34,553 nucleotides of DNA. It comes from Deltaproteobacteria bacterium (GTDB lineage Bacteria > Desulfobacterota > Binatia > HRBIN30 > JACQVA1). The DNA is taken from the NCBI GenBank assembly GCA_016210005.1, contig JACQVA010000017.1, forward strand, positions 1 through 34,553, in the 5' to 3' direction. This document shows, in pieces, positions 3,039 to 19,968 of the stretch (the first letter of the stretch is position 1; each line of letters opens with the position of its first letter). The notes beneath the pieces are model-generated. The model had not been told where the DNA came from. It made no database searches and was given only the letters and a program-made list of their open reading frames with translations. The translations under genes were made by a program, and so were the position numbers.

Positions 3039-3077
3039 GATACCTCGATGTGCACCGTCTCCCTGTGGCGTGGCCAA

Positions 3078-3390
3078 TTACCAGATGAGCGAGAGCCTCA
3101 ATGTGACCCACAAGCTGTTCCGCTTCGCCCCAGGCGACGGCCGGCTATCATACTCATCGCGGACCACGAACTTGGCGCTGATCGGGTCGATGAGTGGAGC
3201 CGTCAGCCCGGCTTCGGTGCGCAGCAAGTAGTCCGTGGTGAAATGCTGGTCCCCAGGGTGAACGTGGTGGGCTGCTTCGTCCGCACGGTGCCTAACTCAA
3301 CCCGATCGAAAAACCGGTAGTGTCGGTCGTGCTCTGCTGCACGTTTAGGCCGAAATCGAGGCCGCCATCCCAGTAGCGCTCCGTGAGCCT
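3078..3390 (-). pseudogene. Decayed, internally deleted DUF481 outer-membrane protein gene
   Basis: Three minus-strand pieces in different frames each resemble part of a DUF481 (YdiY-like) beta-barrel protein. The first, near 3300-3390, reads RYWDGGLDFGLNVQQSTTDT and runs into a TAG after GFSIGLS. The second, near 3240-3285, reads VRTKQPTTFTLGTSI. The third, 3078-3258, reads TTDYLLRTEAGLTAPLID, then ISAKFVVRDEYDSRPSPGAK, and ends SLWVTLRLSLIW-stop, a typical outer-membrane C-terminus with a final aromatic residue. DUF481 proteins usually exceed 200 residues, so the middle strands appear to be missing and at least two frameshifts are needed. An AAAGGAGG sequence (3413-3420) precedes a GTG at 3408 that could still start a 38-residue peptide. 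The homology is recognised by eye only. Confidence 0.6.
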
Positions 3391-3492
3391 ATCGCGTCGC
3401 CATCGCACTCTGCCTCCTTTGCGCCTCCGTCTGGATGAGCTGAGTTCCCCCGCGAATGCCGGGCACAAGAGCACCCCAGGGGGGCGGGCCGG

Positions 3493-3927
3493 TCACGCTG
3501 CTTTCAGTTCGGACGTACAATGCGGGCAGCGCGTTGCCTTGATGGCGATCGCCGAGACACAGTACGGGCAGGCCTTGGTGATTGGTGCCGCTGCGGGCGG
3601 CTGCTGGAGCCGATTGACCTGCCGGATCAGAATGAAGATCGCGAAGGCGACGATCAGGAAGTCGAGCACGGTGTTGACGAACAGCCCGTAATTGATGGTG
3701 GGCGCCCCGGCCGCTTTCGCCGCCGCCAGGCTTGGGTAGGTCTCACCCGACAATGCGATAAACAGATTGGAGAAATCCATCCGGCCAAGCAGCAATCCCA
3801 GCGGGGGCATCAGAATGTCTCCCACGAACGAGGTGACGATCTTGCCAAACGCCGCGCCGATAATGATCCCCACGGCCATATCCACCACGTTGCCCCGCAT
3901 CGCGAACTCTTTGAACTCTCTCAGCAT
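3493..3927 (-). CDS. mscL: Large-conductance mechanosensitive channel MscL with zinc-ribbon tail
   Basis: A 144-residue MscL. The N-terminal amphipathic helix and first membrane helix are clear ([20 protein letters not shown]), followed by the conserved GDILMPPLG loop and a second helix near residues 83-104 ([18 protein letters not shown]). MscL forms a homopentameric inner-membrane pore that opens under membrane tension to relieve hypo-osmotic shock. The cytoplasmic tail is longer than in E. coli and ends in two Cys pairs, CPYC and CPHC, 11 residues apart, which look like a zinc ribbon. The start is supported by GGGAGGGTGGAG just upstream. It sits 97 bases downstream of the small membrane-coil gene in the same orientation. 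Confidence 0.95.
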
Positions 3928-4746: not shown

Positions 4747-5274
4747 CTATGAGCTGCCGCCCATGATCTCTTGGACCTCGCGATCGAAGTCCTCCGGCAG
4801 CACGTAATGGTGCTCGATGTGGCGGACCAGCCCGTCTTTACCGACAAACACCACGATCGGCACGTAGTTCACCTCGTAGTCGCGCAGTAGCTGCACGTTC
4901 TTGCCGGCCAGCATCGGGAACGGCAAACTGAACTGATCCTTGTAGCGGCGGATGAGCTTGTCGCTATCAGCCAGGACGTTGATCGTGATGATGGTGAGGC
5001 CATCGCCGGCGTGGGCCTCGTGGGCGCGCTTGAGAAAGCCGATTATCTGCGTGCAGTAGTGGCACATGTTGTGAGTAAAATACAGGATCAGCGGTTTGCC
5101 CAGCAGCTCGGGTAGGCGATAGACCTCGCCGGTCTCGTCCGGCAGCGCAAACGCCGGCGGGGGTTTGCCGACCGCGGCGATTTCGGCTGCCGCCGGGCCG
5201 GGCCGCGCCACGCTGGCCAGCATGGCCAAGGCGACAGCAGCGGCTCGCCATGCATAATTCGTTTGCCCGCTCAC
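4747..5274 (-). CDS. TlpA/AhpC-type periplasmic thioredoxin-fold protein
   Basis: A 175-residue redoxin. A signal peptide is visible (hydrophobic residues 11-24, Ala-rich cleavage region near 28-30). The thioredoxin fold carries the active-site motif CHYC (Cys71, Cys74) and the expected cis-Pro region NYVPIVVFV (Pro139). TlpA-like proteins reduce disulfides or keep copper-site Cys residues reduced in the periplasm. It is the last gene of the nos run. Its start codon is GTG at 5274, and the first G is the last base of the upstream TAG, so translation is probably coupled; GAGGTGG sits just upstream. With the SCO protein two genes upstream, a role in readying Cu-binding Cys residues for NosZ CuA is a reasonable inference, not proven. 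Confidence 0.85.
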   Translation of the reverse strand: MSGQTNYAWRAAAVALAMLASVARPGPAAAEIAAVGKPPPAFALPDETGEVYRLPELLGKPLILYFTHNMCHYCTQIIGFLKRAHEAHAGDGLTIITINVLADSDKLIRRYKDQFSLPFPMLAGKNVQLLRDYEVNYVPIVVFVGKDGLVRHIEHHYVLPEDFDREVQEIMGGSS

Positions 5275-6350
5275 TACGCCACCTCGACGCGCGTGATGGT
5301 GAACTGCACTTGGTTTTCGTAGTTGGCCGGGTAGATCAGCGGAATGCCGTCGGCTTCGGCGTAGGCGTAAGCAAAGGTCTCGAGCAGATCGCCGCCCTGC
5401 TTCGGAGCCAAGGCGATGGCGCGTCCTTCGGAGACCTTGAAGCGGTTGGGTGAGAGCTTGCCGAAGAAGAAATTGCGGGCCGCGGGGTTCTTGTCTGCCT
5501 CTGACACATCCACCGGTACCCAGCCTGCGTCACGGTCATGGAAGCTGACCCAGCAGTGAGCGCCGGAGCAGTCACCGCTAAGCTGTCCGCTGGCGCCACC
5601 GGCGGCGGGCAGCGGGAAGCCTTGCTCCCAGCGCACGGGGATGCCGCGTGAGATCAGGATCGCCATGAACAAAGAATGGTAGTCGTCACACTTGCCGCGC
5701 TTGTGGCGCATAATCCATTGGGTATCGCCGGTGCCGCAGCCGGGGATCTGCTTGTCGTAAGAGAGCTCTTCGATGATGCCCTCGAACACCCGGCGCGCCA
5801 CCTCCAGCGGTTGCTTGGCATCGCCGATGGCGTTGCGGGCGAATGCCTCCACTTCGTCCGTCATGCGCGTACGGGAGGTGTAACGCAGATATTTTGCCGC
5901 GCCGGCAGCGTCGAGCGCCTGCGCCGTGCTGCCGGCCTGCTTGCGGGCGACGTGATAGCGGGCGGTCAGCGACCAGTCGGCGGAGATGTGCTTGCTGGCG
6001 GCGCGCACGTGCACGATCTGGTTGCCGTAAGTCTCACTGGTGGTGGTCTCGTGGGGCAGCGTGCAGCTGACCGACAGTTTGCTGATCGCCTGCGCCGCGT
6101 CGGCCGGCGGCAGCGGCATCCAGAGATGAAAATCCTCGGCGTCAGCCGGCAGGTTGTGCACCACCGTGCGGTAGGTGACATCGAACTCCATCTGGCGCAG
6201 GCGGGTGATATCGACGCCGTCCGCGGTTGCGGCGCTTGCCAAACCGGCCCGCAGCGCCAGGCACGCCGCGCCGCTGTAGCCGGCCAAACGAAGGAAATCG
6301 CGACGGTCAATCCCGCGGCTGTGCAAAGGCGGAGGCTGAGCGGAGCGCAC
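5274..6350 (-). CDS. Tat-exported transglutaminase-like domain protein
   Basis: A 358-residue protein. Residues 14-24 (IDRRDFLRLAG) form a twin-arginine signal motif (Arg16-Arg17) followed by a hydrophobic stretch to about residue 41, so export of a folded protein is expected. The C-terminal half holds a transglutaminase core with the catalytic triad in order: Cys221 in RGKCDDYHSLF, His265 in GAHCWVSF and Asp281 in VPVDVSEA. Bacterial members are usually Cys proteases or amidases rather than cross-linking enzymes; the substrate here is unknown. The start overlaps the 3' end of the SCO gene by 44 bases and the end overlaps the redoxin start by 1 base. The gene is therefore embedded in the nos run, an unusual place for this family. 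Confidence 0.85.
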   Translation of the reverse strand: MRSAQPPPLHSRGIDRRDFLRLAGYSGAACLALRAGLASAATADGVDITRLRQMEFDVTYRTVVHNLPADAEDFHLWMPLPPADAAQAISKLSVSCTLPHETTTSETYGNQIVHVRAASKHISADWSLTARYHVARKQAGSTAQALDAAGAAKYLRYTSRTRMTDEVEAFARNAIGDAKQPLEVARRVFEGIIEELSYDKQIPGCGTGDTQWIMRHKRGKCDDYHSLFMAILISRGIPVRWEQGFPLPAAGGASGQLSGDCSGAHCWVSFHDRDAGWVPVDVSEADKNPAARNFFFGKLSPNRFKVSEGRAIALAPKQGGDLLETFAYAYAEADGIPLIYPANYENQVQFTITRVEVA

Positions 6351-6915
6351 GGAGCATATCCTCCTTGTCCCAAAAGTAGGTATCGAATGCGGCGGTCGGT
6401 TTGCCGGTGGGGTCGATGACCAGCACCTTGATGGTGTGCCGGAGCGCCTCGCCGCCCGCGGCGGCCGCGCCCTCGACCGTGATGCCGAAGTCCTTGAGCA
6501 CCCCCGCCACCCGCGGCTGCTCGCCGGTAAGAAAGAGCCAGCGCCGGTCTTGCTTCGGGTCGATGCCGTGCTTGGCGAAGTGCTTGAGGATCTCTTCCGG
6601 CGTGTCCGCCGCCGGATTCACGCTCACGTGGAGGTACTGCACGTTCGCCGGGCTAGTCAGCTCTTCGTCGAGGGCTTTGAGCATGTGGGTCAACATCGAG
6701 CAGCTGGCGGTGCACTTGGCGAAGGTAAATCCCAAGAGCGTGGTCTTGCCCGCCAGTGACTGGTTGGAGATCGTTTGCCCGTCCCAATTGGGTAAGGCGA
6801 AGCTTGGCAAGTCGGGCTGACGTTCGCTTGGAATCAACGCCCAGGCCAGTACCCCAACGCCGAGCAACAGGCCGGCACCGATCGCCGTGATGGCAGCCTT
6901 GCTCACGGTGGTCAC
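6307..6915 (-). CDS. SCO1/SenC family copper chaperone-like protein
   Basis: A 202-residue protein with an N-terminal membrane anchor (about residues 8-28) and a thioredoxin-like SCO domain. The copper ligands are present: Cys68 and Cys72 in KCTASC and the distant His160 in RHTIKV. SCO proteins deliver copper to, or reduce, the CuA site of cytochrome oxidase, and some act on nitrous oxide reductase, whose CuA site is homologous. The GTG start at 6915 overlaps the TGA of the upstream gene in a GTGA arrangement, which suggests translational coupling; a GTG three codons in is an alternative start. No nosL was found in this window, so this protein is a candidate copper donor to NosZ. That link is inference. 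Confidence 0.9.
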   Translation of the reverse strand: MTTVSKAAITAIGAGLLLGVGVLAWALIPSERQPDLPSFALPNWDGQTISNQSLAGKTTLLGFTFAKCTASCSMLTHMLKALDEELTSPANVQYLHVSVNPAADTPEEILKHFAKHGIDPKQDRRWLFLTGEQPRVAGVLKDFGITVEGAAAAGGEALRHTIKVLVIDPTGKPTAAFDTYFWDKEDMLRALRSASAFAQPRD

Positions 6916-7565
6916 CCCTGCTCGATCACCACTTCGGTGGGCTTGCTGTCTTTGACGTTTACGACCTTACCCTTAGTGACGCTGCCGGCGCGCCACACGC
7001 GCACCTGATGTTCTCCGGGCGGAACCTCGGGGATGGTAAAGCTGCCATCTTCCTTGGTGATGGCCGCGTAGGGATGATCGAAGACCAACACGAAAGCGTG
7101 CTCGTCGGGGTGGCGGTTACACACCACCTCGATGAAACCGGTCTCCTCACGGTAGCGGTGGAACGGTACGATCGGCTTGCGCACCTCGACCCCCGAATGC
7201 GGCAGGGCCACGTTGTAGACCGTGGCGCCGTAATGCAGCGGGCGCTGCGAGACTTCTTTCTGGTAGGCCAGCCGCATGTACAGGTGAGTGTTGTGCATCG
7301 TGCCGTCGTCGTTGCGCAGCACAAACGAGTTGCCAACGAAGCCGACGCTGAGAAACGGCTCGAACTTTCCGCCGGCCGTGTGCGTGATGACCGTATCCTG
7401 CTTGGGCACCGCGCTGCTGCTCACGCCCTCGATCCAAACCACCGCCGGTCCGTCTTCTATCGTGCCGGTGACCTTTCCCCGTACCTCCCCTGCTTCGGCT
7501 GACGCCGCCACTGCAAGCACGACCGCCAACTGCAAACAGGCTCTGCGTATCCCTTTCGTTCCCAT
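6912..7565 (-). CDS. Periplasmic cupredoxin-like / carboxypeptidase-regulatory-like protein
   Basis: A 217-residue protein with a Sec signal peptide (hydrophobic residues 11-22, AEAG cleavage region). The N-terminal part resembles a plastocyanin-type fold with possible copper ligands His91/His94 (MHNTHLY) and Cys149/His152/His156 (VVCNRHPDEH). The C-terminal part (about residues 162-215, with PEVPPGEHQVRVWR) is a carboxypeptidase-regulatory-like beta sandwich. Similar proteins are often labelled methylamine-utilisation or plastocyanin-like, with no firm function. The frame is open to 7694, but ATG 7565 starts a clean signal peptide and leaves 37 bases after nosY. Within the nos run it could bind periplasmic copper or carry electrons; this is inferred from ligands and position. 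Confidence 0.8.
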   Translation of the reverse strand: MGTKGIRRACLQLAVVLAVAASAEAGEVRGKVTGTIEDGPAVVWIEGVSSSAVPKQDTVITHTAGGKFEPFLSVGFVGNSFVLRNDDGTMHNTHLYMRLAYQKEVSQRPLHYGATVYNVALPHSGVEVRKPIVPFHRYREETGFIEVVCNRHPDEHAFVLVFDHPYAAITKEDGSFTIPEVPPGEHQVRVWRAGSVTKGKVVNVKDSKPTEVVIEQG

Positions 7566-7602
7566 GAGTGCGATTCCTATCCTTTCCTTCGAGGTTATTG
7601 CT

Positions 7603-8439
7603 TCACACCAAAGTGTCGGCCGCCACACGGCGCCGGAAAATAAGGTAGCTGAGCGCGAGCGGTACCGCCAGCCACAGCAGCAAGGCGGCCGCAACCAGCG
7701 CGCTCGGAGGAGCCGAGGGAATGGCGGTAGCCACCCCTAAGGGCGAGGTCGCCCCTGGCAGCCATTGGAAGCACAAGATACGAAATGCATCTGCCGGGTT
7801 GAGCAGTACCAGAATACCGAACAGGACGGTTGGCACCTTGCCTCCGGCCAGGATGAGCAGGCCGACGACCAGCAGATCGAACACCAGCACAAACCACATC
7901 CAGACGAAGACCGAGGCCACCACCGCGCGGTCACGCCCGCGCGCCAGAAGCGAGACCAGAAACGACAGCCCCAGGAACACCAGGCCGATCAACACCGCCA
8001 GGCCGATCAGCACCGCATAGGTACTCAGCTCCAAACCCGACCACAGGCGCAAGGCGATGCCCGCCGTTCCCAGGCCGGCAACACAGGCCACCGTCAGGGC
8101 GAGCGCGAAGCCGACGAAAGTGCCAGCGAAATACTGCCCGGCAGAAAGCGGATACACCAGGATCAAGTCCAGCGTCCCGCGAGCCTTCTCGTCGATGATC
8201 GCCCCGCAGCCCAACACCAATGCCAGCAACGGGACCAGGTACGTGGTCAGGTTCATCAGGCTGGCGATCAGCGCCTCTTGCCCGTGCGTGCCGGCCACGC
8301 CGATCGGTGCCGCGCCGAAGAAGGCGATGGCCAGAACCGACACCGCCAGCAGGGCACAGACGATCCAGATCCAGCGATTGCGCAAGCCATCGCGCAACTC
8401 CTTTTGCGCGATCACCAGCCAGGCCTCAGTTGAGTTCAA
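7603..8439 (-). CDS. nosY: NosY, ABC-2 type permease of the NosDFY copper-site assembly system
   Basis: A 278-residue polytopic membrane protein with about six hydrophobic segments. The cytoplasmic entry KELRDGLRNRW, the phrase DEKARGTLDLILVYPLSAGQ and the later LLNPADAFR are characteristic of NosY. With NosF and NosD it forms an ABC complex that supplies what is needed to build the CuZ sulfide-copper cluster of NosZ. The most likely start is TTG at 8439, preceded by GGAG at good spacing and overlapping nosF by 14 bases. A GTG at 8415 is a shorter alternative and would remove the first eight residues. Confidence 0.93.
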   Translation of the reverse strand: MNSTEAWLVIAQKELRDGLRNRWIWIVCALLAVSVLAIAFFGAAPIGVAGTHGQEALIASLMNLTTYLVPLLALVLGCGAIIDEKARGTLDLILVYPLSAGQYFAGTFVGFALALTVACVAGLGTAGIALRLWSGLELSTYAVLIGLAVLIGLVFLGLSFLVSLLARGRDRAVVASVFVWMWFVLVFDLLVVGLLILAGGKVPTVLFGILVLLNPADAFRILCFQWLPGATSPLGVATAIPSAPPSALVAAALLLWLAVPLALSYLIFRRRVAADTLV

Positions 8440-9316
8440 AGTAGACTCCCTCCAGGCTCGGCTCCTCTACGTGCAAGTGGCTGAGCATCTGCGCGTGGGC
8501 GTTGAGGCCGAGCAGAAACGCGGTCTTCGCGGCCTGCGGCACCTCGGCGACTTGTACGTGGTCTTTGCGCGCCACCGCCGCCGCGCCTAGCTGCATCAGC
8601 ACGCTTTCGGCCAGCGGCCGCTCGGCATCGCGCAGGTAGATGTGCACGCGCACCGGCATGCGCAGGTCGCGCCGCAGTTCTTCGACCGTACCCAGCGCCT
8701 TCACCTCGCCGTTGGCCAACACGCACATCCGGTTGACGTGCGGGCCGACCTCGGACAAGCGATGCGACGACAGCACCACCGTGCGCGGGCCGCCCGACTG
8801 CAGCAAGCGAAAGAAATCGCGCACGCCTTGCGGGTCGAGGCCTTCGAGCGGTTCGTCGAGAATCAGCACCGTGGGTCGGCCCAACAGCGCTTGCGCCAGG
8901 TTGAGGCGCTGCTGCATACCCTTCGAGTACTCGCCCACGGGGCGCTCAGCGGCGGCGGTCAGCCCGACGCTCTCCAGCATCGGCGCCACTACTTCGGCCC
9001 CGAGGCCGCGCAGTTCGGCGAAGTAGCGCAGCGTCTCTGCGCCCGTCAGGTGCTCATAGAAGCGAATCCGTTCCGGCATGAAGCCCAGCGTGCGCCGAAA
9101 ATCACACCAGGTTTCGTCGTTGGGCTCGCGCCCTTCGAGCAGGAGCTGGCCGCTCGTCGGCCGGCACAAGCCGAGCAGGATGCGCAACAGCGTGGTCTTG
9201 CCCGAGCCGTTGTGGCCGAACAAGCCGATCCATTCGTGCCGCGCGATTTCGAGGTCGAGCGGGCGCAGCGCCTCGACAGCGCCGAACCGCTTCGACACGC
9301 CTGCAAGCTTGAGCAT
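8426..9316 (-). CDS. nosF: NosF, ABC transporter ATPase for NosZ maturation
   Basis: A 296-residue ABC ATPase. Walker A is GHNGSGKTT (34-42), the signature is EYSKGMQQRL with the Lys variant common in this family, and Walker B is VLILDEP, followed by the D-loop GLDPQG and the switch His in LSSHRLSE. It powers the NosDFY complex at the inner membrane. The ATG at 9316 shares its first base with the stop of the nosR-nosD fusion gene (TGATG), and GGGGAGA lies just upstream, so translation is tightly coupled. A TTG one codon earlier is also possible. Confidence 0.94.
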   Translation of the reverse strand: MLKLAGVSKRFGAVEALRPLDLEIARHEWIGLFGHNGSGKTTLLRILLGLCRPTSGQLLLEGREPNDETWCDFRRTLGFMPERIRFYEHLTGAETLRYFAELRGLGAEVVAPMLESVGLTAAAERPVGEYSKGMQQRLNLAQALLGRPTVLILDEPLEGLDPQGVRDFFRLLQSGGPRTVVLSSHRLSEVGPHVNRMCVLANGEVKALGTVEELRRDLRMPVRVHIYLRDAERPLAESVLMQLGAAAVARKDHVQVAEVPQAAKTAFLLGLNAHAQMLSHLHVEEPSLEGVYFELN

Positions 9317-12300
9317 CAATTCTCCCCGGGCAGATGCTCCAGCTTGGTGAGGGTGCCGTAGTAGTTCTTGGGGGCAGCCGGATAGCGGTCGAGCAGCGCC
9401 GTCCAGTTGGGCGTGACCGGCGTCATGTGCGGCGCGTTGTCGACCGCCTTGGGCGCGGCGATCACCGGGAACTCGCGCTCGGCGAAGGCGAGCACCTGGA
9501 AGGCCGGGCTGGAGAGCAGCAGCTTGGCGCTGGGGTACTTCCAGAGCAAAGCATCGACGAGGGTGTTGGAACGGTAGGGAACATCACCCCGGCCGTCGTT
9601 GTTGAGGTCCCAGCCGACGTAGTCGCCCCAGAAGTTGCCGTTCCAGGTTTGGTCGCGCGCCGAGACGTACTTCACTTGGATCTCGTTGGCCATGAAGCTG
9701 TTCTCGGAGATGTCGTTGTCCTCGGAGCCGCCCCAGTAATGCACGCCCAGATTGTTGCGGGCAATGAAATTACCGCGCACGGTGTTGAAGAGCGAATTGT
9801 ACAGGAACAGGCCCTTAGTGTTGCCGACGATGACGTTGTCGTTGGCGCGGCTGCGCGTCACCTGCATCAGCAGCAGGCCGTGGGTGGAGTTGTTGTGCAG
9901 GGTGTTGCGGCTGGTGTCGAGGTTCTTGGAGAACATCAGCGCCAGCCCGACGTAATTGTCGGCGACGACGTTGTCGCTGAAGTTGCCGCGGTCGCACCAC
10001 ATCGTGTGAATGGCGTAACGCGAGTTGCGCACGGTGTTGCCGGTGACCGTGGCATCCATGCTCAGGTCCATGTAAATGCCGTCGCGGCAGTGATCGAGGT
10101 CGTTGTCCGCGATCACCGCTCCGCGTGCGCTCCACAGATGCACGCAGTTGCCGCGGGCGTTTTGCTGCAACTCGGCCAGGCCGGCGACATGGTTGCCGCG
10201 GATGAGCGCGCGTTCGGCCCCGTGAATCCAAATGCCGAAGTGGCTCTGCTCGATGCGGTTGTTGATGATCTGCGCGTCGGTGGCTGACTGCTCCACCCGC
10301 ACGCCCGCGTGCGACACCTCGGCGTCGCCCCGCCCGCTCGAGCGCAGCGTGACTCCTTCGAGGCGTACATTGGGCGACGCGATCGCGACCACGTGGCTAC
10401 GGCCGCCGGCGTCGATAATTGCCCCGTCCTCGCCCACCAGCGCCAGCGCTTTGTCGATCACCACACTCTCGGAGTACACGCCCGGCTTGAGCCGAATGGT
10501 GTCGCCGTCGTTGCCGGCCGCAATGGCGGCCGTGATCGCCCCGGTGCCGGGAAGCACGACCCGCTCCGCGGCCTGGGCCACGCCCACAGCCAGTGTCGCT
10601 GCCGACAGCAGCGCCAGCACCACCAGCGGGCGCGGCGTCCGCTGTTCGCGCTTGGCCACGATCAACTCAGGGCACACGCCTTGGTCCATTCCCGTGCTCT
10701 GGCAGTCCCAGCATTGCAGGCACTCGCCGTAGTTGATGCGACCGGTTTCGTACGCAATCGCCTTCGGTTCACAGCCCTTGTAGCAGATCTTACACGTCTT
10801 GCACTGCTCCCAGCGAAACAGCGGCAGCAAGGGCTTGCGGCTGGGGATGGCCAGAGCGCCGCCGAGGGGACAGACGAAGCGGCAGAAGAAACGATACACC
10901 ACCGCGGAAACCAGGGTGATGACGGCGAAATAGGCGACGAAGTGAAACGGCCGAGCCAAGCGCAGGATGAAGGTCTTGAACGGCTCGACCTCGTCGAGCA
11001 TTTCCGCCAACGGCAGGCTCACCAAGGCCACGGCCAGGATGACCAGGAAGGTGACGTACTTACCGGCGCGCCCGAGCCGGCCTGGATCCCAAGCGTCGAT
11101 GCGGCGGTGAAGCTGCTTGGGGGCGATGCGCTTCCATCCCGCCGCCAGTAGTTCCAAGAGCGCTCCGTAAGGGCAAAGCCAGCCGCAGAAGAAGCCGCGA
11201 CCCCAGACCACCAGCGAGACGGCAATGGCGATCCAGAACAGAAAGATCATCGGCTCGGAGAGGAACACCTCGAACGGAAAGACGCGGCGCACCGCCGCGT
11301 TGGCCGGCGTCAGGATTTGCGTCGCACTCGGCTGCGCCTTGAGCACCAGCCCTACCCATACGGCCGCCACCACCGCAATCGAGCGGTGCAGTAGTTTGCG
11401 GTAGGCCAGCAGCTGTTGTCGCGCGGCGAAGATGGCGGCGGTCACCAGCAAGAACAGCGCGAAGGCGACGGTGTTGAGTGCGCTCGCTTGCCAGCGCGTG
11501 CGCCAGAATGGCAGGTCCTCTTCGATGAACGCCGCGGGCAACTCGAAGGGCGCCAGGAAGGTGCCGTAAGCGCGGCGGTCTTGCACGCGATAGGGAATGG
11601 TCAGGTGAAAGACGAACGGCTGCGTCGGATCGAAGTTGCGGTTCTTGAGGAAGAAGATCCCGCCCTCGCGTAGCGCCGGTGCGCCCTCGATCGGCGGCTC
11701 CGGCAGATTCAGGTAATCGGTGTCCCGAAAAACAAACTGGTCCTTGCCCTGCTCGATGGAGAAGCGATCGAAGATGCCGCCGCGTGCGAAGCCGGCACCT
11801 TTGAACGACAGCTCGCCTTCGGAGCAGATGTAGAGCGCGCTGCCGCCTTCCTTCTCTACGCGCTCTTGCACCATTTGGTAGTAGCGCTCGCCGACGAGAT
11901 TCTTGCCGATGACGGGCGGATCGAGGACGGTGAACCTCACGTTCAGCACCGGCTCTGAGCCGCTGCCGCCAACCTCGTCGGCCTTGAGCACCAGTTGGCC
12001 CAAGGCGCCGACGGCCACCAAGTCCCGCCAGGTGTGGGGGGCAAACTGCTTTAGCGGTCGCCGCTTGCGCACTTCGTACGCTTTGACAATGCCGACAGCG
12101 CGCCCGACCGTACGGCCGGCCTCTAAGATGGTGGCGTTCTCGGCCACCGCCGTCACCGTCGCCCCGCTGATGCCGTCGACGCGGGTGTAGCCCTCGTGCG
12201 GCTGGTCGCTGATCAGAATGCGGTCACGGATGTCCTTGCCCACGTATTGGGCCACGAAGTCGTGGATCACCTGTTCGGAGAGCCCGATCAGCACGATCGG

Positions 12301-12642
12301 CTCGGCGTGCTGAACGATCTTGACGCCCACGATCTTGCCCGCCGGATTGATGCCGACCAGGGTATTGATCGAGTGGCCGGAGTAGCCCGGGATCTGGACC
12401 AGATCGTCGGTGACAAAAACGTATCCGAGTAGGCTGCGTCGCTCCTCGGCACCGGGGCCGTAGCCCTCCCAGTAGCTGTCTTTGCGCTCGAACTCGGTCG
12501 CCTCAGGCAGCACGTCAGCTGGCTGGTAGTCGTACTTCTTGGTACCGAAGGCGACTTGTGCGTGCGCCTTGGCCAGCCCCCAGGGGCTGGCGGCTAGGAG
12601 CGCCAACAGCAGGCGTGCCGCCAAGACGGTCGTAGTCCTCAT
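9316..12642 (-). CDS. NosR-NosD fusion protein (flavin/Fe-S electron donor plus beta-helix NosD)
   Basis: One uninterrupted 1108-residue frame that joins two proteins normally encoded separately. Residues 1-28 are a signal peptide. A periplasmic FMN-binding domain carries DGISGATVT with Thr162, the expected flavinylation site. Next come membrane helices with two CP motifs (FFCGWLCPYG and FFCRFVCPLGG) and two cytoplasmic 4Fe-4S clusters: Cys614, 617, 620, 624 and Cys641, 644, 647, 657. This is complete NosR. At about residues 672-690 a hydrophobic stretch (LVVLALLSAATLAVGVAQAA) looks like a NosD signal peptide turned into a last membrane helix. The rest is NosD, a right-handed parallel beta-helix (CASH-type repeats, to 1108). 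The predicted topology is consistent, with NosD in the periplasm. GTG 12651 is an alternative start; an internal GTG at 10659 could also yield separate NosD. Confidence 0.92.
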   Translation of the reverse strand: MRTTTVLAARLLLALLAASPWGLAKAHAQVAFGTKKYDYQPADVLPEATEFERKDSYWEGYGPGAEERRSLLGYVFVTDDLVQIPGYSGHSINTLVGINPAGKIVGVKIVQHAEPIVLIGLSEQVIHDFVAQYVGKDIRDRILISDQPHEGYTRVDGISGATVTAVAENATILEAGRTVGRAVGIVKAYEVRKRRPLKQFAPHTWRDLVAVGALGQLVLKADEVGGSGSEPVLNVRFTVLDPPVIGKNLVGERYYQMVQERVEKEGGSALYICSEGELSFKGAGFARGGIFDRFSIEQGKDQFVFRDTDYLNLPEPPIEGAPALREGGIFFLKNRNFDPTQPFVFHLTIPYRVQDRRAYGTFLAPFELPAAFIEEDLPFWRTRWQASALNTVAFALFLLVTAAIFAARQQLLAYRKLLHRSIAVVAAVWVGLVLKAQPSATQILTPANAAVRRVFPFEVFLSEPMIFLFWIAIAVSLVVWGRGFFCGWLCPYGALLELLAAGWKRIAPKQLHRRIDAWDPGRLGRAGKYVTFLVILAVALVSLPLAEMLDEVEPFKTFILRLARPFHFVAYFAVITLVSAVVYRFFCRFVCPLGGALAIPSRKPLLPLFRWEQCKTCKICYKGCEPKAIAYETGRINYGECLQCWDCQSTGMDQGVCPELIVAKREQRTPRPLVVLALLSAATLAVGVAQAAERVVLPGTGAITAAIAAGNDGDTIRLKPGVYSESVVIDKALALVGEDGAIIDAGGRSHVVAIASPNVRLEGVTLRSSGRGDAEVSHAGVRVEQSATDAQIINNRIEQSHFGIWIHGAERALIRGNHVAGLAELQQNARGNCVHLWSARGAVIADNDLDHCRDGIYMDLSMDATVTGNTVRNSRYAIHTMWCDRGNFSDNVVADNYVGLALMFSKNLDTSRNTLHNNSTHGLLLMQVTRSRANDNVIVGNTKGLFLYNSLFNTVRGNFIARNNLGVHYWGGSEDNDISENSFMANEIQVKYVSARDQTWNGNFWGDYVGWDLNNDGRGDVPYRSNTLVDALLWKYPSAKLLLSSPAFQVLAFAEREFPVIAAPKAVDNAPHMTPVTPNWTALLDRYPAAPKNYYGTLTKLEHLPGEN

Positions 12643-12779
12643 TACTGTCACTGCTCTCTTGACTGGGAATTACTGCGCGGCGAGTGCGCCGAGCTTAGGC
12701 TGCGAGCACAACCAACACAAGGGGTGGCACTGCAAGCAAGGTAAGGCCGGTCCTTCGTCGCGGCCAAAGACTGTTGGTG

Positions 12780-12848: not shown

Positions 12849-14675
12849 CTAGACCTTGGCTTTCACCATCAGTCGCATGCGCATTTCCAGATGCAACGCA
12901 TGGCAGAAGTTGGTGCAGTAGATCCAGTGGACGCCGGGCTTGTCGGCCACGAACGTCACTGAGCGGGTCTGATACGGTCCGACGATGAAATTGATGCCGT
13001 AGTTGGAGACCGCGAACCCGTGCGTCAGGTCGGGGATCTCGTCGTTGTTGGTGACAATGAACGTCACCTCGTCGCCCTCGTTCACCTCCACCGTCTGGAG
13101 GCCATAGACGGGCGCGTTGGCGGTCATTTTCACAGTCACCTTCTTGCCGTCGCGCTCGATCGAGCTCTTCGTCGTTGCCTGCGGGTGCTCGTCCATGCGC
13201 ACGCGGTGCACGACTTTGGGCTCGATGATGTCGCGGCGCACGATGATGCAGTCGTGGGGCTCGACGTAAGCGGAGTGGTCATGCAGCAGCTTCATCTTGT
13301 CGCCGGTGATGTCGATAAGCTGATCGTTCTCCGGCTTGATCGGTCCGACGTTGATGAAGCGGTCCTTCGAGATCTTGTTGAGAGCCACCAAGTACTTGCC
13401 GTCGGCTTCCTTGGTTTCGGCCATCGAAGCCATGATGTGGCCGATCTGGTAATGGATGTCCAAGCGGTCCACCACCGCCGTCGCGCCCGGGGAGGGGTTC
13501 TTGTAGATGTCGATGGCCTTCTGGATGTTCCACTTCACCACCTGGCTGTCGATGAACAGCGAAGTGTAAGCATTGCCGCGGCCATCGAAGGTCGTGTGCA
13601 ACGGGCCCAGACCGATCTCCGGCTCGCCGATGACGCAGTCGCGCGGTTGGATCTTCCCGTTGAAGGCGTCCTCGATCTTGCTGATGTCGATGACACTCGC
13701 GGTTGGGGAAACCTTGCCGGAGGCGATGGCGTATTTGCCGTCCGGGCTGACGTTGACGCCGTGCGGGTTCTTGGGGATGGGGATGGCCAGAGTGAAGCCG
13801 GAATCGGGGCCGCCCTGCAACATCTTCACGCCATCGACCACCTTGTACTTGTTGTTGGCCAGGGCCTCCTTGATGCGGCCCCAGTGGAAGACGACCAGGT
13901 AATCGCGGTCGTTGGCGAGCATTTCCGAGACGGTGGCGCCGTTCTCGGTATTGTAAGAGGTCGCGAAGGAGTACCGGCCTTGGTAATCGACGTTGGCGAG
14001 GTCGAGGTTGTGGGGCACCAGGATCTGCGCCACCACCTCCATCTTGTTGATGTCGATGATGGTGTGCATGCCGGGGTACTTCTTGGAGTCAAAGTAATCG
14101 CCCTTGCCGTCGTTGGGCAGCGGCACCTGAAACTCGCTATTGAGGATCAGCCACTCGGTGACCGGGGCGCGCTGGGTGAAGAGGCCGTGGGCGCCCTGGA
14201 TGTGCGGCACCTGCATGATGGCGTCGGTTTCGAGGGTGTCGATGCGCACGCGGGCGACGCGGTTGTTGATCTTGTCGTTCACGAACAGGTAGCGGCCGTC
14301 GTAAGTGCCGTCCTTGTACGAGCCGTGCACGTGGTGGGTGTCGCCCTGGATGACGCCCTTCAGCAGTACCTTGCTCTCGTTGGTAGTGCCGTAGCCGGTA
14401 CCGCTGTCGGCGTTGAACACCGGGATGCGTTTGATCTCATTGCCGGATGGAACGCCGATGACGCGGATTTCGCCCGACTGCCCGCCGCTCCAGAACCCGT
14501 AGTAGTCGTCCAACTCACCCGGGTGCACCTCGGTGCGCAGCTGCGTCTTGGCAGCTTCGACCGAGGGGGCGAGCGAGCCGCCGGTCACAATGAGGGCGAA
14601 CACGAACCCGCCGATGCCACCGATGAGGAGAGCGGGGTTTACACGCCTGAGGGCCTTCCAGCCTTTGGTTAACAT
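12849..14675 (-). CDS. nosZ: NosZ, nitrous oxide reductase
   Basis: A 608-residue enzyme that reduces N2O to N2 in the periplasm. The N-terminal seven-bladed propeller holds all seven CuZ histidines: His114 and His115 (GDTHHVH), His163 (QGAHG), His305 (KNPHG), His360 (GPLHTTF), His413 (QIGH) and His474 (VEPHD). The C-terminal cupredoxin domain holds the CuA ligands: His552 (DLTHGF), Cys587, Cys591, His595 and Met598 in YCTNFCHALHLEM. The N-terminus has Arg-Arg (LRRVNPALL) but not a full Tat motif; one hydrophobic stretch (15-33) looks like a Sec signal or anchor, as in clade II NosZ. The start has a perfect AAGGAGG. It lies 57 bases after the diheme cytochrome gene and is followed by a terminator. 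Confidence 0.97.
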   Translation of the reverse strand: MLTKGWKALRRVNPALLIGGIGGFVFALIVTGGSLAPSVEAAKTQLRTEVHPGELDDYYGFWSGGQSGEIRVIGVPSGNEIKRIPVFNADSGTGYGTTNESKVLLKGVIQGDTHHVHGSYKDGTYDGRYLFVNDKINNRVARVRIDTLETDAIMQVPHIQGAHGLFTQRAPVTEWLILNSEFQVPLPNDGKGDYFDSKKYPGMHTIIDINKMEVVAQILVPHNLDLANVDYQGRYSFATSYNTENGATVSEMLANDRDYLVVFHWGRIKEALANNKYKVVDGVKMLQGGPDSGFTLAIPIPKNPHGVNVSPDGKYAIASGKVSPTASVIDISKIEDAFNGKIQPRDCVIGEPEIGLGPLHTTFDGRGNAYTSLFIDSQVVKWNIQKAIDIYKNPSPGATAVVDRLDIHYQIGHIMASMAETKEADGKYLVALNKISKDRFINVGPIKPENDQLIDITGDKMKLLHDHSAYVEPHDCIIVRRDIIEPKVVHRVRMDEHPQATTKSSIERDGKKVTVKMTANAPVYGLQTVEVNEGDEVTFIVTNNDEIPDLTHGFAVSNYGINFIVGPYQTRSVTFVADKPGVHWIYCTNFCHALHLEMRMRLMVKAKV

Positions 14676-14732: not shown

Positions 14733-15557
14733 TTACTTGGCGGCCACCCGCGGCCCCGGCCCCTGCTTCATCAGCTCCAAGCAGTATGAAACCACATCCC
14801 ACTTTTGCTTTTCTTCCAACACGTCCGCAAACGAGGGCATCGGGGTGCCATCCATGCCGGTGACGAAAGTCCGATAGATCTCCTTGGCTCCGGTGCCGCC
14901 CTTGAGCGGCCCCGAAGTGAAATCAAAGGGTACGATCTTGTCGCCCCAGTTGTCCTTCAATCCATCAGCCGACTCGCCGTCGCCACGGCCTTCGGCGCCG
15001 TGACACTTCACGCACCCGGCATCCGTGAACAGCTCCTTGCCGGCCTTGACCGACTCGGGTGTGCCGACGTAGTCGGGCACGTTGTCGATCTTGATCGGCT
15101 CGGCGGGCTTGTACTCCGCCCACTTCGGCGAGAACGTCTTGACGTACGCGATCACGGCCTTGCGGCTCTCGAGCGGGACATCGGCGTGCGAGGGCATGCC
15201 CGAGCGCGCAACACCGCCGGTCACCGTGCGCAACAGATCCTCATCGGTCGGCAGCGAGCCCGTCGGTGTGCTGCGGAACTTGAACATCCCGGCGGTGAAG
15301 TCACGCGGGTAGATGGTGACCACCACCCCGTTCTTCTGCGCCCGGTGCACCACCCCGATCAACCCTTTGCCGTCGCCCTTGGCGCCGTGGCAGATGACGC
15401 AATAGCGGTCGTAAACCTTCTTGCCTTCTTCCACCAGCTGCTCGTCGCCGGCGCGCGCCAGGCTCGGGAGCGCCGCCACCAACAGTCCGGCGGCGATAAC
15501 AATCCCCTGCCGCCTTTCGATGCGCCTCACGGTATGTCGATTTCTTGACCACATCAT
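14733..15557 (-). CDS. Periplasmic diheme cytochrome c, probable electron carrier to NosZ
   Basis: A 274-residue protein with a Sec signal peptide (hydrophobic residues 19-33, ALARA-like cleavage near 36). It has two c-type haem sites, CVICH (53-57) and CVKCH (182-186), each followed by a likely axial Met: Met121 in SGMPSHADV and Met240 in TPMPSFADV. The repeated PS(H/F)ADV phrase indicates two homologous cytochrome c domains. GAGGAGGG precedes the ATG. Its position directly upstream of nosZ in the same direction supports a role as electron donor to the CuA site, as known for other nos-linked cytochromes; the redox partner is inferred. Confidence 0.92.
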   Translation of the reverse strand: MMWSRNRHTVRRIERRQGIVIAAGLLVAALPSLARAGDEQLVEEGKKVYDRYCVICHGAKGDGKGLIGVVHRAQKNGVVVTIYPRDFTAGMFKFRSTPTGSLPTDEDLLRTVTGGVARSGMPSHADVPLESRKAVIAYVKTFSPKWAEYKPAEPIKIDNVPDYVGTPESVKAGKELFTDAGCVKCHGAEGRGDGESADGLKDNWGDKIVPFDFTSGPLKGGTGAKEIYRTFVTGMDGTPMPSFADVLEEKQKWDVVSYCLELMKQGPGPRVAAK

Positions 15558-15720: not shown

Positions 15721-16752
15721 TCAATAAGCGTTTTCTCCGTCGCGCAGGTCAAACTTGGCGTCGCTCTCGACGCCGGCCGGCCACCGGCTCGATGCCAGGC
15801 GGCGGCGGTCCTGATCCAGGATTAGGGCGGCTGAGTGTGCGCTGCGCTCAACTAATGCCACGCCCTCGGCTGGCGACATCACCAGCACGGCCGTCGCCAG
15901 ACCGTCGGCTTCCGTGGCAGTGGGGGCTAGGACTGTAACGCTCGCCGCGCCCTGCGCCGGCATCAGGCTGCGCGGGTCGATGATGTGGTGGTAGCGCACG
16001 CCATCCACTTCAAAATACCGCTCGTAGTCGCCTGAGGTCGAGACTGCACCACGTGACAGCTCGACGACGGCCAGCGGCGGGGTGTCTGCCTGCGGGGGGC
16101 GCACCGCGATCCGCCAGGGACGATCGTCGGGGTGTTTTCCGAACACACGGATGTCGCCGCCGATGGCGGCCACGCCGCCTCGCGCGCCGCTTTGCTCCAG
16201 TACTTCGGCCACGCGATCCGCCGTGTATCCCTTGCCGACGCCACCGAGTCCGAGCGCCATACCCGGCTGCGCTAGAGCGATGGTCCGCTGATCCTCACTC
16301 AGCACGAGACCGCGGAGGTCGGTGAGTGGGCGGAGCGCCTCGAGCTCTGCGGCTGACGGCACGCGCGGGTGCTCAGGTATGCCCCAGAGTTTGATGACCG
16401 GCTGCAACAAAGGATTGAAAGCCCCGCCCGAGCGCGTGGCGATTTGTACCGCCGCCCGGGTGACCTCGAAGAGCTCGGGTGCGACACTCACCGGACCGGT
16501 GCCCGCCTGGGCGTTGAGCCGGCTGAGGTCGCTGGTGCTCTTGTAGTTGCTGAGCAGCTGATCGAGCCGGCTGACTTCGGCGAAACCGCTGGCGATGGCC
16601 CGCTCGGCCACGGCTTCATCGTCGATCGCCACCGTCAGCGTTACCACCGTGCCCATGTGCGGCTGGGAGCGCCGTACCACGACCTCGCCCGGGTTACGGG
16701 CGCACGCAGCCATCAGCGAGAGCAGCAGCACCAGCGAGCGCGGAGTGATCAT
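15721..16752 (-). CDS. nosX: ApbE-family FAD:protein FMN transferase (NosX-like)
   Basis: A 343-residue ApbE protein. From ATG 16752 it begins with a short hydrophobic signal ending in Met-Ala-Ala-Cys (Cys17), so it is probably a lipoprotein; the frame is open to 16806 but that start would bury the signal. Family motifs include PHMGTVVTL, YKSTSDLSRLN, GGVGKGYTADRV, AAIGGDIRVFG and YHHIIDPRS. The usual DPRTG is DPRSLMP here. ApbE attaches FMN to a Thr in SGAT motifs, and NosX does this for NosR. The fusion protein in this window carries such a motif, so a dedicated pairing is well supported by context. It is upstream of the cytochrome gene, 163 bases away, and divergent from the NnrS operon. 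Confidence 0.9.
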   Translation of the reverse strand: MITPRSLVLLLSLMAACARNPGEVVVRRSQPHMGTVVTLTVAIDDEAVAERAIASGFAEVSRLDQLLSNYKSTSDLSRLNAQAGTGPVSVAPELFEVTRAAVQIATRSGGAFNPLLQPVIKLWGIPEHPRVPSAAELEALRPLTDLRGLVLSEDQRTIALAQPGMALGLGGVGKGYTADRVAEVLEQSGARGGVAAIGGDIRVFGKHPDDRPWRIAVRPPQADTPPLAVVELSRGAVSTSGDYERYFEVDGVRYHHIIDPRSLMPAQGAASVTVLAPTATEADGLATAVLVMSPAEGVALVERSAHSAALILDQDRRRLASSRWPAGVESDAKFDLRDGENAY

Positions 16753-16921
16753 CGATCGGTCCCACCTCCAAGCGACGATAGCACGTACCGGCGCTCTTGC
16801 CGCCAACCCGGCTGGGCCGCGGCCGGGGTGCTGGCCAGCCCGCGCGCGATGCGCTAAGTCTCTGCGTGGCTGAAGCCGCCCATGGCTCGCGCTTGGGTGA
16901 GTTCGCCATCAGGGTTTGTGA
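16753..16921. promoter_or_regulatory. Divergent intergenic region between nosX and the NnrS operon
   Basis: This 169-base gap must hold promoters for both directions. I looked for a TTGAT-N4-ATCAA type FNR/NNR box and saw none that is convincing. The plus-strand gene has a modest AGGG ribosome site; the minus-strand gene has GGAGG about 12 bases before its ATG. The control protein for this locus cannot be told from the sequence. Confidence 0.35.
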
Positions 16922-18715
16922 ATGCAGATGTCAGATAGTTTTACCGCCAGCACCACGATCGATGAGGTCTTGCACGTCAATGCCGCCCTCAGCCGCATCC
17001 TGAACGCCCGCGGCATCGACACCTGTTGCGGCGGCAGCGCTACCCTCGCCGAAGCCACCGAGATCCGCGGCCTGGGGCTGGCTGAGTTGTTGGCCGAGCT
17101 CAATGCCGCCGCCCCTGCGGCGGCGGTAGCGGAGCAACCACCGGGTGAAGCTCCCGCAGCCGTGCGCAGCTGCACGCCGCCGGTGCCGGAAGAGGCGGCC
17201 TTGGCGGCGACTCCGAGCGGGGTGACTCAGCCCGTGCCGACTCCCAAACCGGCGCAATTCGTCCCCTTCTTCATTGCCAGTCTGCTGATCGCGCTCACCT
17301 TCGGCGCCACGCTCGGCATGTTGACGCTGGCGACAATGACGTTGCCGTGGAGCTTCATCGGCGCCGTGCCGGTCGGTATGGCCAAGATCGCCCACGGCTA
17401 CTCCCAGGTCTTCGGGTTCGCCACGCTGTTCATCATGGGGGTCGCCTACCACATCATGCCGCGGTTTACCGGCAACCCGGTGGCCACTGTTGGCCTGGCC
17501 AAGGCGTCGTTCTGGTTACAAACCGGCGGGGTAGTGCTAATCGCCGCCGGCATGCTTATCGGCGCCCCGGTGGCCGCGCCGGCCAGAGTGCTGGGCTCGC
17601 TGTTGCTGCTGGCGGCGGCGACCGCATTCGGCAGCACCGTACACCGTACGCTCGCTGGTGGCACACCGACGCCGGAACACTTGGAGCGCTACTTGCGGGC
17701 GGGCTGCGTGTGGCTGCTGCTTGCCAGCGCACTCGCCTGTATCACCGCCGCCGGGGTGGAGGTCTTGCAGCCGGCGGTGTGGGAGACCGCGCTATGGGGC
17801 TTTGCTGCCTCGTGGATCTTCGGGATGAGTCTGCGCGTGTTGCCCGTGTTTCTCGGGCTGCCGCCGGCCCCGGGGCGTTACAGCGCCTGGTTGTTCGCGG
17901 GCTACCAAGCGGCGGCGGCGCTGTGGATAACGGTTTCAGTGGCCGAGGCTTGGTATCTGATACCGCTCGCGCGAGCGCTGGCCGGCTCCGTGTTGGGGGT
18001 TGCGGCGGCGACCTTCGTTGCGCTCATCGGTATTTTCGGCCCGCGGCTCGAACGTCGTGGCAGGAGCGAGCAGGGCTACGAGAAGTTCATGGTCAGCGCC
18101 TACGCTTGGCTGCTGGTAGCGCTCTTCTTCGCGCCGGGCTGGAGTGCCGCCGCCGCGCTACGTGGTGGCGCCGCGCCATCGTTGCTCCTCGACTTCGGCC
18201 GCCACGCCTTCACCCTCGGTTTTCTCACGCAGATCATTTTCGGCGTCTCTACCCGTATTATTCCCGTGTTCACCGGTGCTCCATTATGGAATCCGGCTTG
18301 GCACACGACGACGTATTTCTTGCTCAACGCCGCCGTTTTGGCGCGCGGCCTCGAAGTTGCGGTGGAGCTCGCGGGCTGGTCCGAAGCCTGGCCGTACATC
18401 TCGATCAGCGGTCCGCTCGCCGTCGGCGCCTTCGCCGCGTTCAGCGCCAACGTCATGTTGACCGTGCGCTCGCGCCCGCCGGTGGCCGCTGTCAGTGGCG
18501 GCGATCCCGTGGCTGATGCGCTGGTGGTAGACCTGCTCCAGGTACCCGGCGCGCTCGATCTCCTGGTGAGCCGCGGCTTTCGCCCGTTGCAGAACCCGGC
18601 GATGCGGGCCGCGATGGGCCGCACGCTGACGCTACGGCAGGCCTGCCGAATTCATGGCATCGACGTCACCCCGCTAGCAGCCGAACTGCGCCGCCTGGCG
18701 GCACAGCGCTCGTGA
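16922..18715 (+). CDS. NnrS-family membrane protein fused to ScdA_N (DUF542) and DUF1858 domains
   Basis: A 597-residue protein with three parts. Residues 12-62 match ScdA_N/DUF542, including the Cys pair in GIDTCCGG (Cys35, Cys36), known from the RIC/YtfE di-iron repair proteins. Residues about 110-490 are NnrS, a haem/copper membrane protein linked to nitric oxide tolerance, with about twelve hydrophobic segments and His-containing motifs (AHGYSQVFGF, GVAYHIMPRF, GRHAFTLGFLTQI). Residues about 515-595 resemble DUF1858 (LLQVPGALDLLVSRGF and later HGIDVTPLAAEL). NnrS normally stands alone. The second ATG two codons in is an alternative start. It leads a plus-strand group with the FmdE-like and hemerythrin genes, which suggests a nitrosative-stress operon. 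Confidence 0.88.
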   Translation: MQMSDSFTASTTIDEVLHVNAALSRILNARGIDTCCGGSATLAEATEIRGLGLAELLAELNAAAPAAAVAEQPPGEAPAAVRSCTPPVPEEAALAATPSGVTQPVPTPKPAQFVPFFIASLLIALTFGATLGMLTLATMTLPWSFIGAVPVGMAKIAHGYSQVFGFATLFIMGVAYHIMPRFTGNPVATVGLAKASFWLQTGGVVLIAAGMLIGAPVAAPARVLGSLLLLAAATAFGSTVHRTLAGGTPTPEHLERYLRAGCVWLLLASALACITAAGVEVLQPAVWETALWGFAASWIFGMSLRVLPVFLGLPPAPGRYSAWLFAGYQAAAALWITVSVAEAWYLIPLARALAGSVLGVAAATFVALIGIFGPRLERRGRSEQGYEKFMVSAYAWLLVALFFAPGWSAAAALRGGAAPSLLLDFGRHAFTLGFLTQIIFGVSTRIIPVFTGAPLWNPAWHTTTYFLLNAAVLARGLEVAVELAGWSEAWPYISISGPLAVGAFAAFSANVMLTVRSRPPVAAVSGGDPVADALVVDLLQVPGALDLLVSRGFRPLQNPAMRAAMGRTLTLRQACRIHGIDVTPLAAELRRLAAQRS

Positions 18716-19404: not shown

Positions 19405-19968
19405 ATGATCAACATCGGCGACCCGCCGGCGAGCGATTTCAACGACCCGCTCGGTGTGCTCAGCGACTGTCACCGGCGAGTGGAGCACTTTCTGCAACTT
19501 TTGCTCACGGTGACGCAGCAGGCCCAGGGCGGCGAGCTGGCCCCCGATCAGCGCGCCGCCCTGGAAGCCGGGCTGCGCTACTTCGCCGAAGCCGCTCCCA
19601 AGCATACCAGCGACGAAGAGGACTCGCTCTTTCCGCGCTTGCGGGCCTGCCGGCACCCCGAGGTTCGCGCCGCGCTCGCCGTCGTCGAGTCCTTGCATGC
19701 CGACCACCTCCGCGCTGAACCCGCTCATCAAGTAGTCGACGAACTCGGGCGGCGCTGGCTGGCGGACGGTCGATTGCCGGCCGACTCGGTTCGAACCCTG
19801 AGCGAAACCCTGCGCCAACTCGCGGCTACCTACCAGCGCCACATCGCCATCGAAGACACTGAGCTCTTCCCGCTTGCCCGCCGCGCTCTCGACACCGCTG
19901 CGGTTGCCGAGCTGGGGCAGGAGATGGCGCGCCGTCGCGGTCTTCGCGTCGGTAGCGGGCCGCGCTGA
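19405..19968 (+). CDS. Hemerythrin HHE-domain protein
   Basis: A 187-residue all-helical protein with the hemerythrin-like ligand pattern: CHRRVEHFL near residue 22, APKHTSDEEDSLFPRL near 65-80, SLHADHL near 98 and RHIAIEDTELFPLARRAL near 149. These His and Glu/Asp residues bind a di-iron centre that can bind O2 or NO or act in Fe-S repair. Coupled with the ScdA_N domain two genes upstream (ScdA/YtfE proteins are ScdA_N plus hemerythrin), it may supply the missing half of a split RIC-type protein. I saw no strong ribosome site; the 12-base gap suggests coupling. Confidence 0.88.
   Translation: MINIGDPPASDFNDPLGVLSDCHRRVEHFLQLLLTVTQQAQGGELAPDQRAALEAGLRYFAEAAPKHTSDEEDSLFPRLRACRHPEVRAALAVVESLHADHLRAEPAHQVVDELGRRWLADGRLPADSVRTLSETLRQLAATYQRHIAIEDTELFPLARRALDTAAVAELGQEMARRRGLRVGSGPR

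Follow-up and report, generated by a model that had tools for sequence, protein, structure and literature searches.

A conserved NosR-NosD fusion gene with a predicted signal peptidase site at the joint between its two parts

The stretch of DNA analyzed here, which we call the window, is 34,553 nucleotides long and carries a nos operon on its minus strand. Within the operon lies nosRD (9316..12642, minus strand; open frame and profile matches), a NosR-NosD fusion gene encoding 1108 amino acids plus a stop. The frame runs from an ATG at 12642, or possibly from a GTG at 12651, to a stop codon at 9316-9318, and the plus strand of 9316-12642 is crowded with stops. A preliminary description of this DNA had placed NosR and NosD together in one open frame of about 1108 codons, which was borne out, with the strand corrected to minus. 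We conclude that NosRD is a real, conserved fusion of two known proteins.

The NosR part is preceded by an N-terminal signal peptide (residues 1-28, cleavage site AHA|Q, 12559..12642, minus strand), predicted from the sequence, its hydrophobic segment and homologous sites. It is conserved in the same manner as the site at the joint (below): among the 12 aligned rows extending this far, 11 have Ala at -1. Residues 29-661 (10660..12558, minus strand) comprise a periplasmic FMN domain, approximately five membrane helices and a cytoplasmic Fe-S domain. The SGAT site at residues 159-162 (12157..12168, minus strand), which we take to be the flavinylation motif with Thr162 as the modified residue, has G160, A161 and T162 invariant across an alignment of six fusions. 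All twelve cysteines expected in NosR are likewise invariant in these six: those of the CP motifs (C486/C490 and C587/C591) and the eight assigned to two [4Fe-4S] clusters (C614, C617, C620, C624, C641, C644, C647 and C657, 1108-aa numbering; residues 614-657, 10672..10803, minus strand). SGAT, the CP motifs and the eight Fe-S cysteines had been listed in the preliminary description as marks of a complete NosR, and all are present in the frame. The NosR profile NF046105 matched residues 45-668 with 449 bits, FMN_bind matched residues 89-170 above its cut-off (both in 1111-aa numbering), and Fer4_5 also matched. The NF046105 score lies below the 1000-bit NCBI equivalog cut-off of that profile. 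All four unfused NosR proteins tested also fell short of it, at 595-798 bits, so this threshold is too strict to settle the matter; we call the part NosR on grounds of homology and gene context and do not claim that it is an NF046105 equivalog. NosRD thus shares the FMN domain with SGAT, the CP motifs and the eight Fe-S cysteines with NosR, a membrane Fe-S flavoprotein of the NosR/NirI family and the proposed electron donor of NosZ, and differs from it in bearing NosD at its C-terminus. The helix count is our own reading of the hydropathy segments, and the topology is drawn as described for Pseudomonas stutzeri NosR, whose N-terminus is periplasmic and C-terminus cytoplasmic according to the accessible part of PMC7660919.

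The NosD part occupies residues 692-1108 (9319..10569, minus strand) and is identified as a right-handed beta-helix by profiles, a structure match and a structure model. As the preliminary description had it, this beta-helix is complete: the NosD profile TIGR04247 matched over its whole length (residues 706-1077 in 1111-aa numbering, profile positions 1-377 of 377), with 410.8 bits against a cut-off of 300. The nearest solved structure is the NosDFY series (PDB 7o0y, phmmer E 3e-76). Among solved structures, one further match of note was obtained, RnfG, which aligns with residues 30-175 in the NosR part, and no solved structure therefore spans the whole of NosR. When structures were predicted from six fusions, the mean pLDDT was 49.9; the NosD beta-helix alone was confident and NosR and the joint were not, so this weak model does not bear on the joint. 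Compared with ordinary NosD, as represented by TIGR04247 and by 7o0y and related NosDFY entries, the window protein shows a full-length beta-helix match and keeps the signal peptide, but this signal peptide is internal and lies on the same chain as NosR.

The surrounding genes, all on the minus strand, fit a nos operon. Upstream of nosRD are apbE (15721..16806; profiles), an FAD:protein FMN transferase gene lying in the same stretch as NosR, which its product would flavinylate; a c-type cytochrome gene with two cytochrome c stretches (14733..15557; profile and locus comparison); and nosZ (12849..14675), whose product is a clade-I-like N2O reductase (TIGR04244, 818 bits) that lacks a canonical Tat motif. 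Downstream, nosF (8426..9319), which encodes an ABC ATPase, overlaps the end of nosRD and is followed by nosY (7603..8439), which encodes an ABC-2 permease (both by frame and profile). Then come a gene for a carboxypeptidase-regulatory-like protein that we read as cupredoxin-like from its conserved His and Cys (6912..7694, start uncertain), one for an SCO1/SenC copper chaperone (6307..6915; profile, locus comparison and alignment), one for a transglutaminase-like protein (5274..6350; profile and locus comparison) and one for a TlpA/ResA-like thioredoxin with a CxxC motif (4747..5274; profiles, locus comparison and alignment). The order cytochrome c-nosZ-nosRD-nosF-nosY, together with the cupredoxin-like gene, was found in all ten loci compared, the SCO1 gene in nine, and the transglutaminase-like and TlpA-like genes in eight. 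Among the exceptions, the L025 contig ends within the SCO1 gene, L028 has its TlpA-like gene on the other strand before the SCO1 gene, and L021 (G020) has no match to the SCO1, transglutaminase-like or TlpA-like genes. Near the nos operon, on the plus strand of the window, lie a gene at 16922-18712 for a 597-aa protein with ScdA_N (DUF542), NnrS and DUF1858 domains and, beside this NnrS-domain gene, one for a hemerythrin-domain protein (19405-19965).

A database search for the same fusion, proposed in the preliminary description, found it in 13 genomes, in 12 as a single frame and in one (G1056) over two contigs, with the split outside the joint. Among 58 relatives, three had full-length fusions: the window, G020 (65% identity) and G044 (60%). 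Five named MAGs carry fusions 51-60% identical to the window protein, one titled 'Nitrospirae' (L025), two 'Acidobacteria' (L026 and L029), one Vicinamibacterales (L027) and one Krumholzibacteriota (L028). By set, fusions were found in 4 of 396 genomes of the L026 phylum, 1 of 80 of the L028 phylum, 2 of 8 of the L025 phylum, 1 of 297 genomes sampled from the phylum to which the window belongs (its own copy), 3 of 148 of the window's class and 7 of 193 of the L026 class (G1056 among them); these sets overlap, and few candidates were scored per genome (two in the 396- and 297-genome sets), so that some fusions may have been missed. We infer that the fusion spans at least four phyla: the window genome (G000) is missing from the full listings of two of the phyla, and the Acidobacteriota sample of 396 and the sample of the G000 phylum had no genome in common among the matches listed. 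Separate, adjacent nosR and nosD genes are present in G012, G736 and G825; G012 and G736 were rejected as fusions, their nosR and nosD being separate ORFs divided by stops. The unfused NosR of G736 (L098, 7021-9699) is lengthened at its C-terminus by an additional segment with hydrophobic stretches at its end. A tblastn search of 72,556 plasmids gave matches in 218 records, all below 60% identity; among the 30 records listed, nine plasmid places cover at least 80% of the query, each joined from two or three pieces. Spread on plasmids was rejected, as the five records checked (three among the nine) have separate nosR and nosD, adjacent in two of them.

Trees were built with ten of the 13 fusions, which are also the basis of the operon comparison, the survey of NosZ N-termini and the NosL search; the three fusions found later were used for the joint only. 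The ten grouped together in the NosR tree (19 rows, support 100/99) and in the NosD tree (46 rows, quick method, 99 SH-aLRT), and their NosZ proteins did so in the NosZ tree (19 rows, support 92/94). Their nearest relative, both by NosR (100/99) and by NosZ (86/92), is G825, which has the gene order cytc-cytc-nosZ-nosR-nosD, with nosR and nosD separate and adjacent. A frame change interrupts nosR in this MAG, and nosD, cut by the contig end, was left out of the NosD tree. The grouping in all three trees fits a single origin, with the reservation that one-sided grouping by itself cannot tell gain from loss. Since the fusions come from several phyla, horizontal transfer of the fusion between phyla is suggested.

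The joint itself (residues 662-691, 10570..10659, minus strand; alignments and hydropathy) is a retained NosD signal peptide. Between the last NosR cysteine and the first NosD strand, a charged stretch is followed by a hydrophobic stretch and a small-x-Ala motif, and cleavage is predicted after Ala691, between bases 10570 and 10569. Signal peptidase sites follow the (-3,-1) rule. The -1 residue is Ala in 13 of 13 fusions; it was first found to be invariant in ten, and G940, G942 and G1056, which were found after the rule had been stated, also have Ala. The -3 residue is a permissible one (A, S or I) in 12 of the 13 fusions; the exception, G940, carries an unfavorable Pro, with T-P-A placed three residues upstream of the site. 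Site 691 tops the 48 columns of the joint by conservation, in a region where mean pairwise identity is 0.36, compared to 0.59 overall. In the ten fusions, it is the sole invariant Ala that has a permissible -3 residue and stands behind a strongly hydrophobic stretch; of the other invariant Ala residues, A546 has mostly Pro at -3 and A436 has Leu, Met or Trp. Ala likewise fills this position in each of the eight unfused NosD proteins whose operons include nosR; one of these, L098, has Pro at -3, like G940. Over all 63 unfused NosD rows, Ala is present in 26 (22 with a permissible -3), a gap in 13 and another residue in 24; the non-Ala rows are mostly distant NosD with poorly aligned N-termini, and the control is clean for the nearer NosD only. 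Hydropathy peaks do not separate a signal from an anchor: the joint helix reaches 1.74, the N-terminal signal peptide 1.68 and the NosR segments 1.23-2.24. A conserved (-3,-1) site behind a hydrophobic stretch is thus present at the joint, as in signal-peptidase-processed polyproteins.

Before the fate of the joint is considered, it must be asked whether the long frame is genuine and whether it is the source of NosD. We give next to no credence to an assembly error or frameshift that merged two genes. The genome is of draft quality, in 268 contigs, but the same frame and joint recur in 12 single-frame copies, of which five come from named MAGs with different titles; single-frame copies elsewhere at 51-65% identity, and further copies reached with the L026 protein as query, exclude chance or error, and we rejected an artefact because independent homologues carry nosRD. 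It also seems quite improbable that NosD is made, additionally or mainly, from an in-frame start such as the GTG at 10659 (V662), with the long frame reflecting a lost stop codon. Initiation at V662 would yield a good signal peptide, and a GTG with a 5-of-6 Shine-Dalgarno match stands two residues ahead of the hydrophobic stretch in L025 and G826. However, V662 of the window has no Shine-Dalgarno match better than 3 of 6, and the codon, which the preliminary description had named as a start that might speak against a single product, is GTG in only 4 of 10 fusions. In G020 and G044, ATG, GTG and TTG are all absent from CPELI up to the hydrophobic stretch, so internal initiation offers no general explanation, and it was rejected when a codon-by-codon check of ten fusions found that a start codon is not conserved.

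Judging from the sequences, nosRD is likelier to encode a processed precursor than a tether, with predicted cleavage freeing NosD and leaving NosR in the membrane. On balance we lean toward a fusion of single origin whose NosD signal peptide is intact and whose chain is cut after export. Adjacent nosR and nosD would have become one frame once, the NosD signal peptide unchanged. One chain would leave the ribosome; NosR would insert, leaving its C-terminal Fe-S domain on the cytoplasmic side, and the NosD signal peptide, acting as an internal in-to-out signal sequence, would export NosD, after which signal peptidase I would cleave after Ala691. The predicted products are a membrane NosR that still bears the short signal helix and receives FMN from the neighboring ApbE, and a mature NosD in the periplasm, which would associate with NosFY in the assembly of CuZ. 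The benefit would lie in targeting both factors co-translationally and supplying them 1:1, not in a permanent scaffold. Cleavage is favored because the -1 Ala is kept, in a variable joint, at the column where unfused NosD has it. Should the joint helix stay uncut, NosD would be held on NosR, and electron supply and CuZ assembly would take place in one NosRD-F-Y complex. The single frame, the correct in-to-out topology, a joint hydrophobicity within the range of the NosR segments and the presence of nosF and nosY after nosRD in 10 of 10 loci all agree with such an arrangement, and the NosB-NosC2 fusions, as described in the accessible part of PMC11409646, are a precedent for a fused nos electron-transfer protein. 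An uncut joint gives no obvious reason, however, for an invariant -1 Ala at the expected column, and we regard the tether, which is the main rival reading, as less likely than cleavage. The earlier proposal that the NosD signal peptide became a final membrane helix stands as to origin and topology; that this helix is a permanent anchor tying NosR to NosDFY is less supported than the opposite, given the residues at -1 and -3.

Cleavage of NosRD would have a parallel. FbcH of Bradyrhizobium is a cytochrome b/c1 precursor for which cleavage by signal peptidase is established. The two share a common plan, in which a single gene encodes a membrane protein and, behind an internal signal peptide, a partner that is exported; the proteins are unrelated, and in NosRD the cleavage is a prediction. 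The NosB-NosC2 fusion of clade II nos clusters consists of proteins different from those of NosRD and is not known to involve an assembly factor. What it has in common with NosRD is a nos accessory electron-transfer protein arising via gene fusion (PMC11409646, accessible part). No mention of a NosR-NosD fusion was found in the literature searched, which covered few subscription journals and included the accessible parts of PMC7660919, PMC6530538, PMC11409646 and PMC5405112; the one relevant match to 'nosRD' was the gene list nosRDFYLX in PMC5405112, which is not a fusion. N2O is a greenhouse gas, and both of the fused proteins help bacteria to destroy it. NosZ is the N2O-consuming enzyme, and a natural NosR-NosD fusion bears on how NosR and NosDFY are coordinated, hinting directly that the two work in a set ratio or at a shared site. 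It is also a warning for annotation, as two nos markers can share one protein.

We also compared the NosZ proteins of these loci. Thirteen C/H/M columns are invariant across 16 rows, among them seven His and a CuA-type C, C, H, H, M set, which we assume to belong to CuZ and CuA. By eye, an Arg pair after the likely NosZ start was absent in 8 of the 10 fusion loci; the window (RRVNPA) and G826 (SRRGIL) have one, and in L021 and L026 runs of Arg occur shortly before the likely start, which would be relevant only if the true start lay further up. In contrast, RRxFL-type motifs were seen by eye in all six unfused-locus NosZ proteins examined (e.g., RRNFF in G825 and RRGLL in L103). In a published survey, clade I and nosR go together with Tat export and clade II and nosB with Sec export, although there are exceptions (PMC11409646). 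By eye, the NosZ proteins of L026, L027, L029 and L095, all four Acidobacteriota, have lipoprotein-like N-termini with a Cys after the hydrophobic stretch; L027 alone has a canonical lipobox.

A search for nosL (PF05573) in the ten fusion genomes, which as drafts may lack genes, found it in G020 only, and not in the window's genome. Certain Cys and His residues are kept in other proteins of the operon: CX3C and a His in SCO1 (9 rows), CxxC in TlpA (8 rows), and five His and one Cys in the cupredoxin-like protein (10 rows). Copper may therefore be supplied by the SCO1, cupredoxin-like and TlpA proteins in place of NosL. The fusion clade offers a setting for studying N2O reduction where NosL is absent and NosZ apparently does not use Tat export. 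Tentatively, and giving it rather less than an even chance, we put forward that these loci represent an undescribed nos system of one origin in at least four phyla, in which NosZ would have changed from Tat to Sec or lipoprotein-like export, SCO1 and the cupredoxin-like protein would stand in for NosL, and a cut NosR-NosD polyprotein would give equal amounts of electron donor and assembly factor. The nosL gene of G020 (C21:6718-7041; L021, same coordinates, minus strand) lies directly downstream of the cupredoxin-like gene and occupies the place that SCO1 has in the other loci, as if the two were alternatives. Finally, two loci, L007 (G016, 688-3693) and L063 (G350, 430-3474), hold NosD and a NosF-like ABC ATPase in one frame of approximately 1000 aa, with the halves linked by a hydrophobic stretch, and are possible NosD-NosF fusions.
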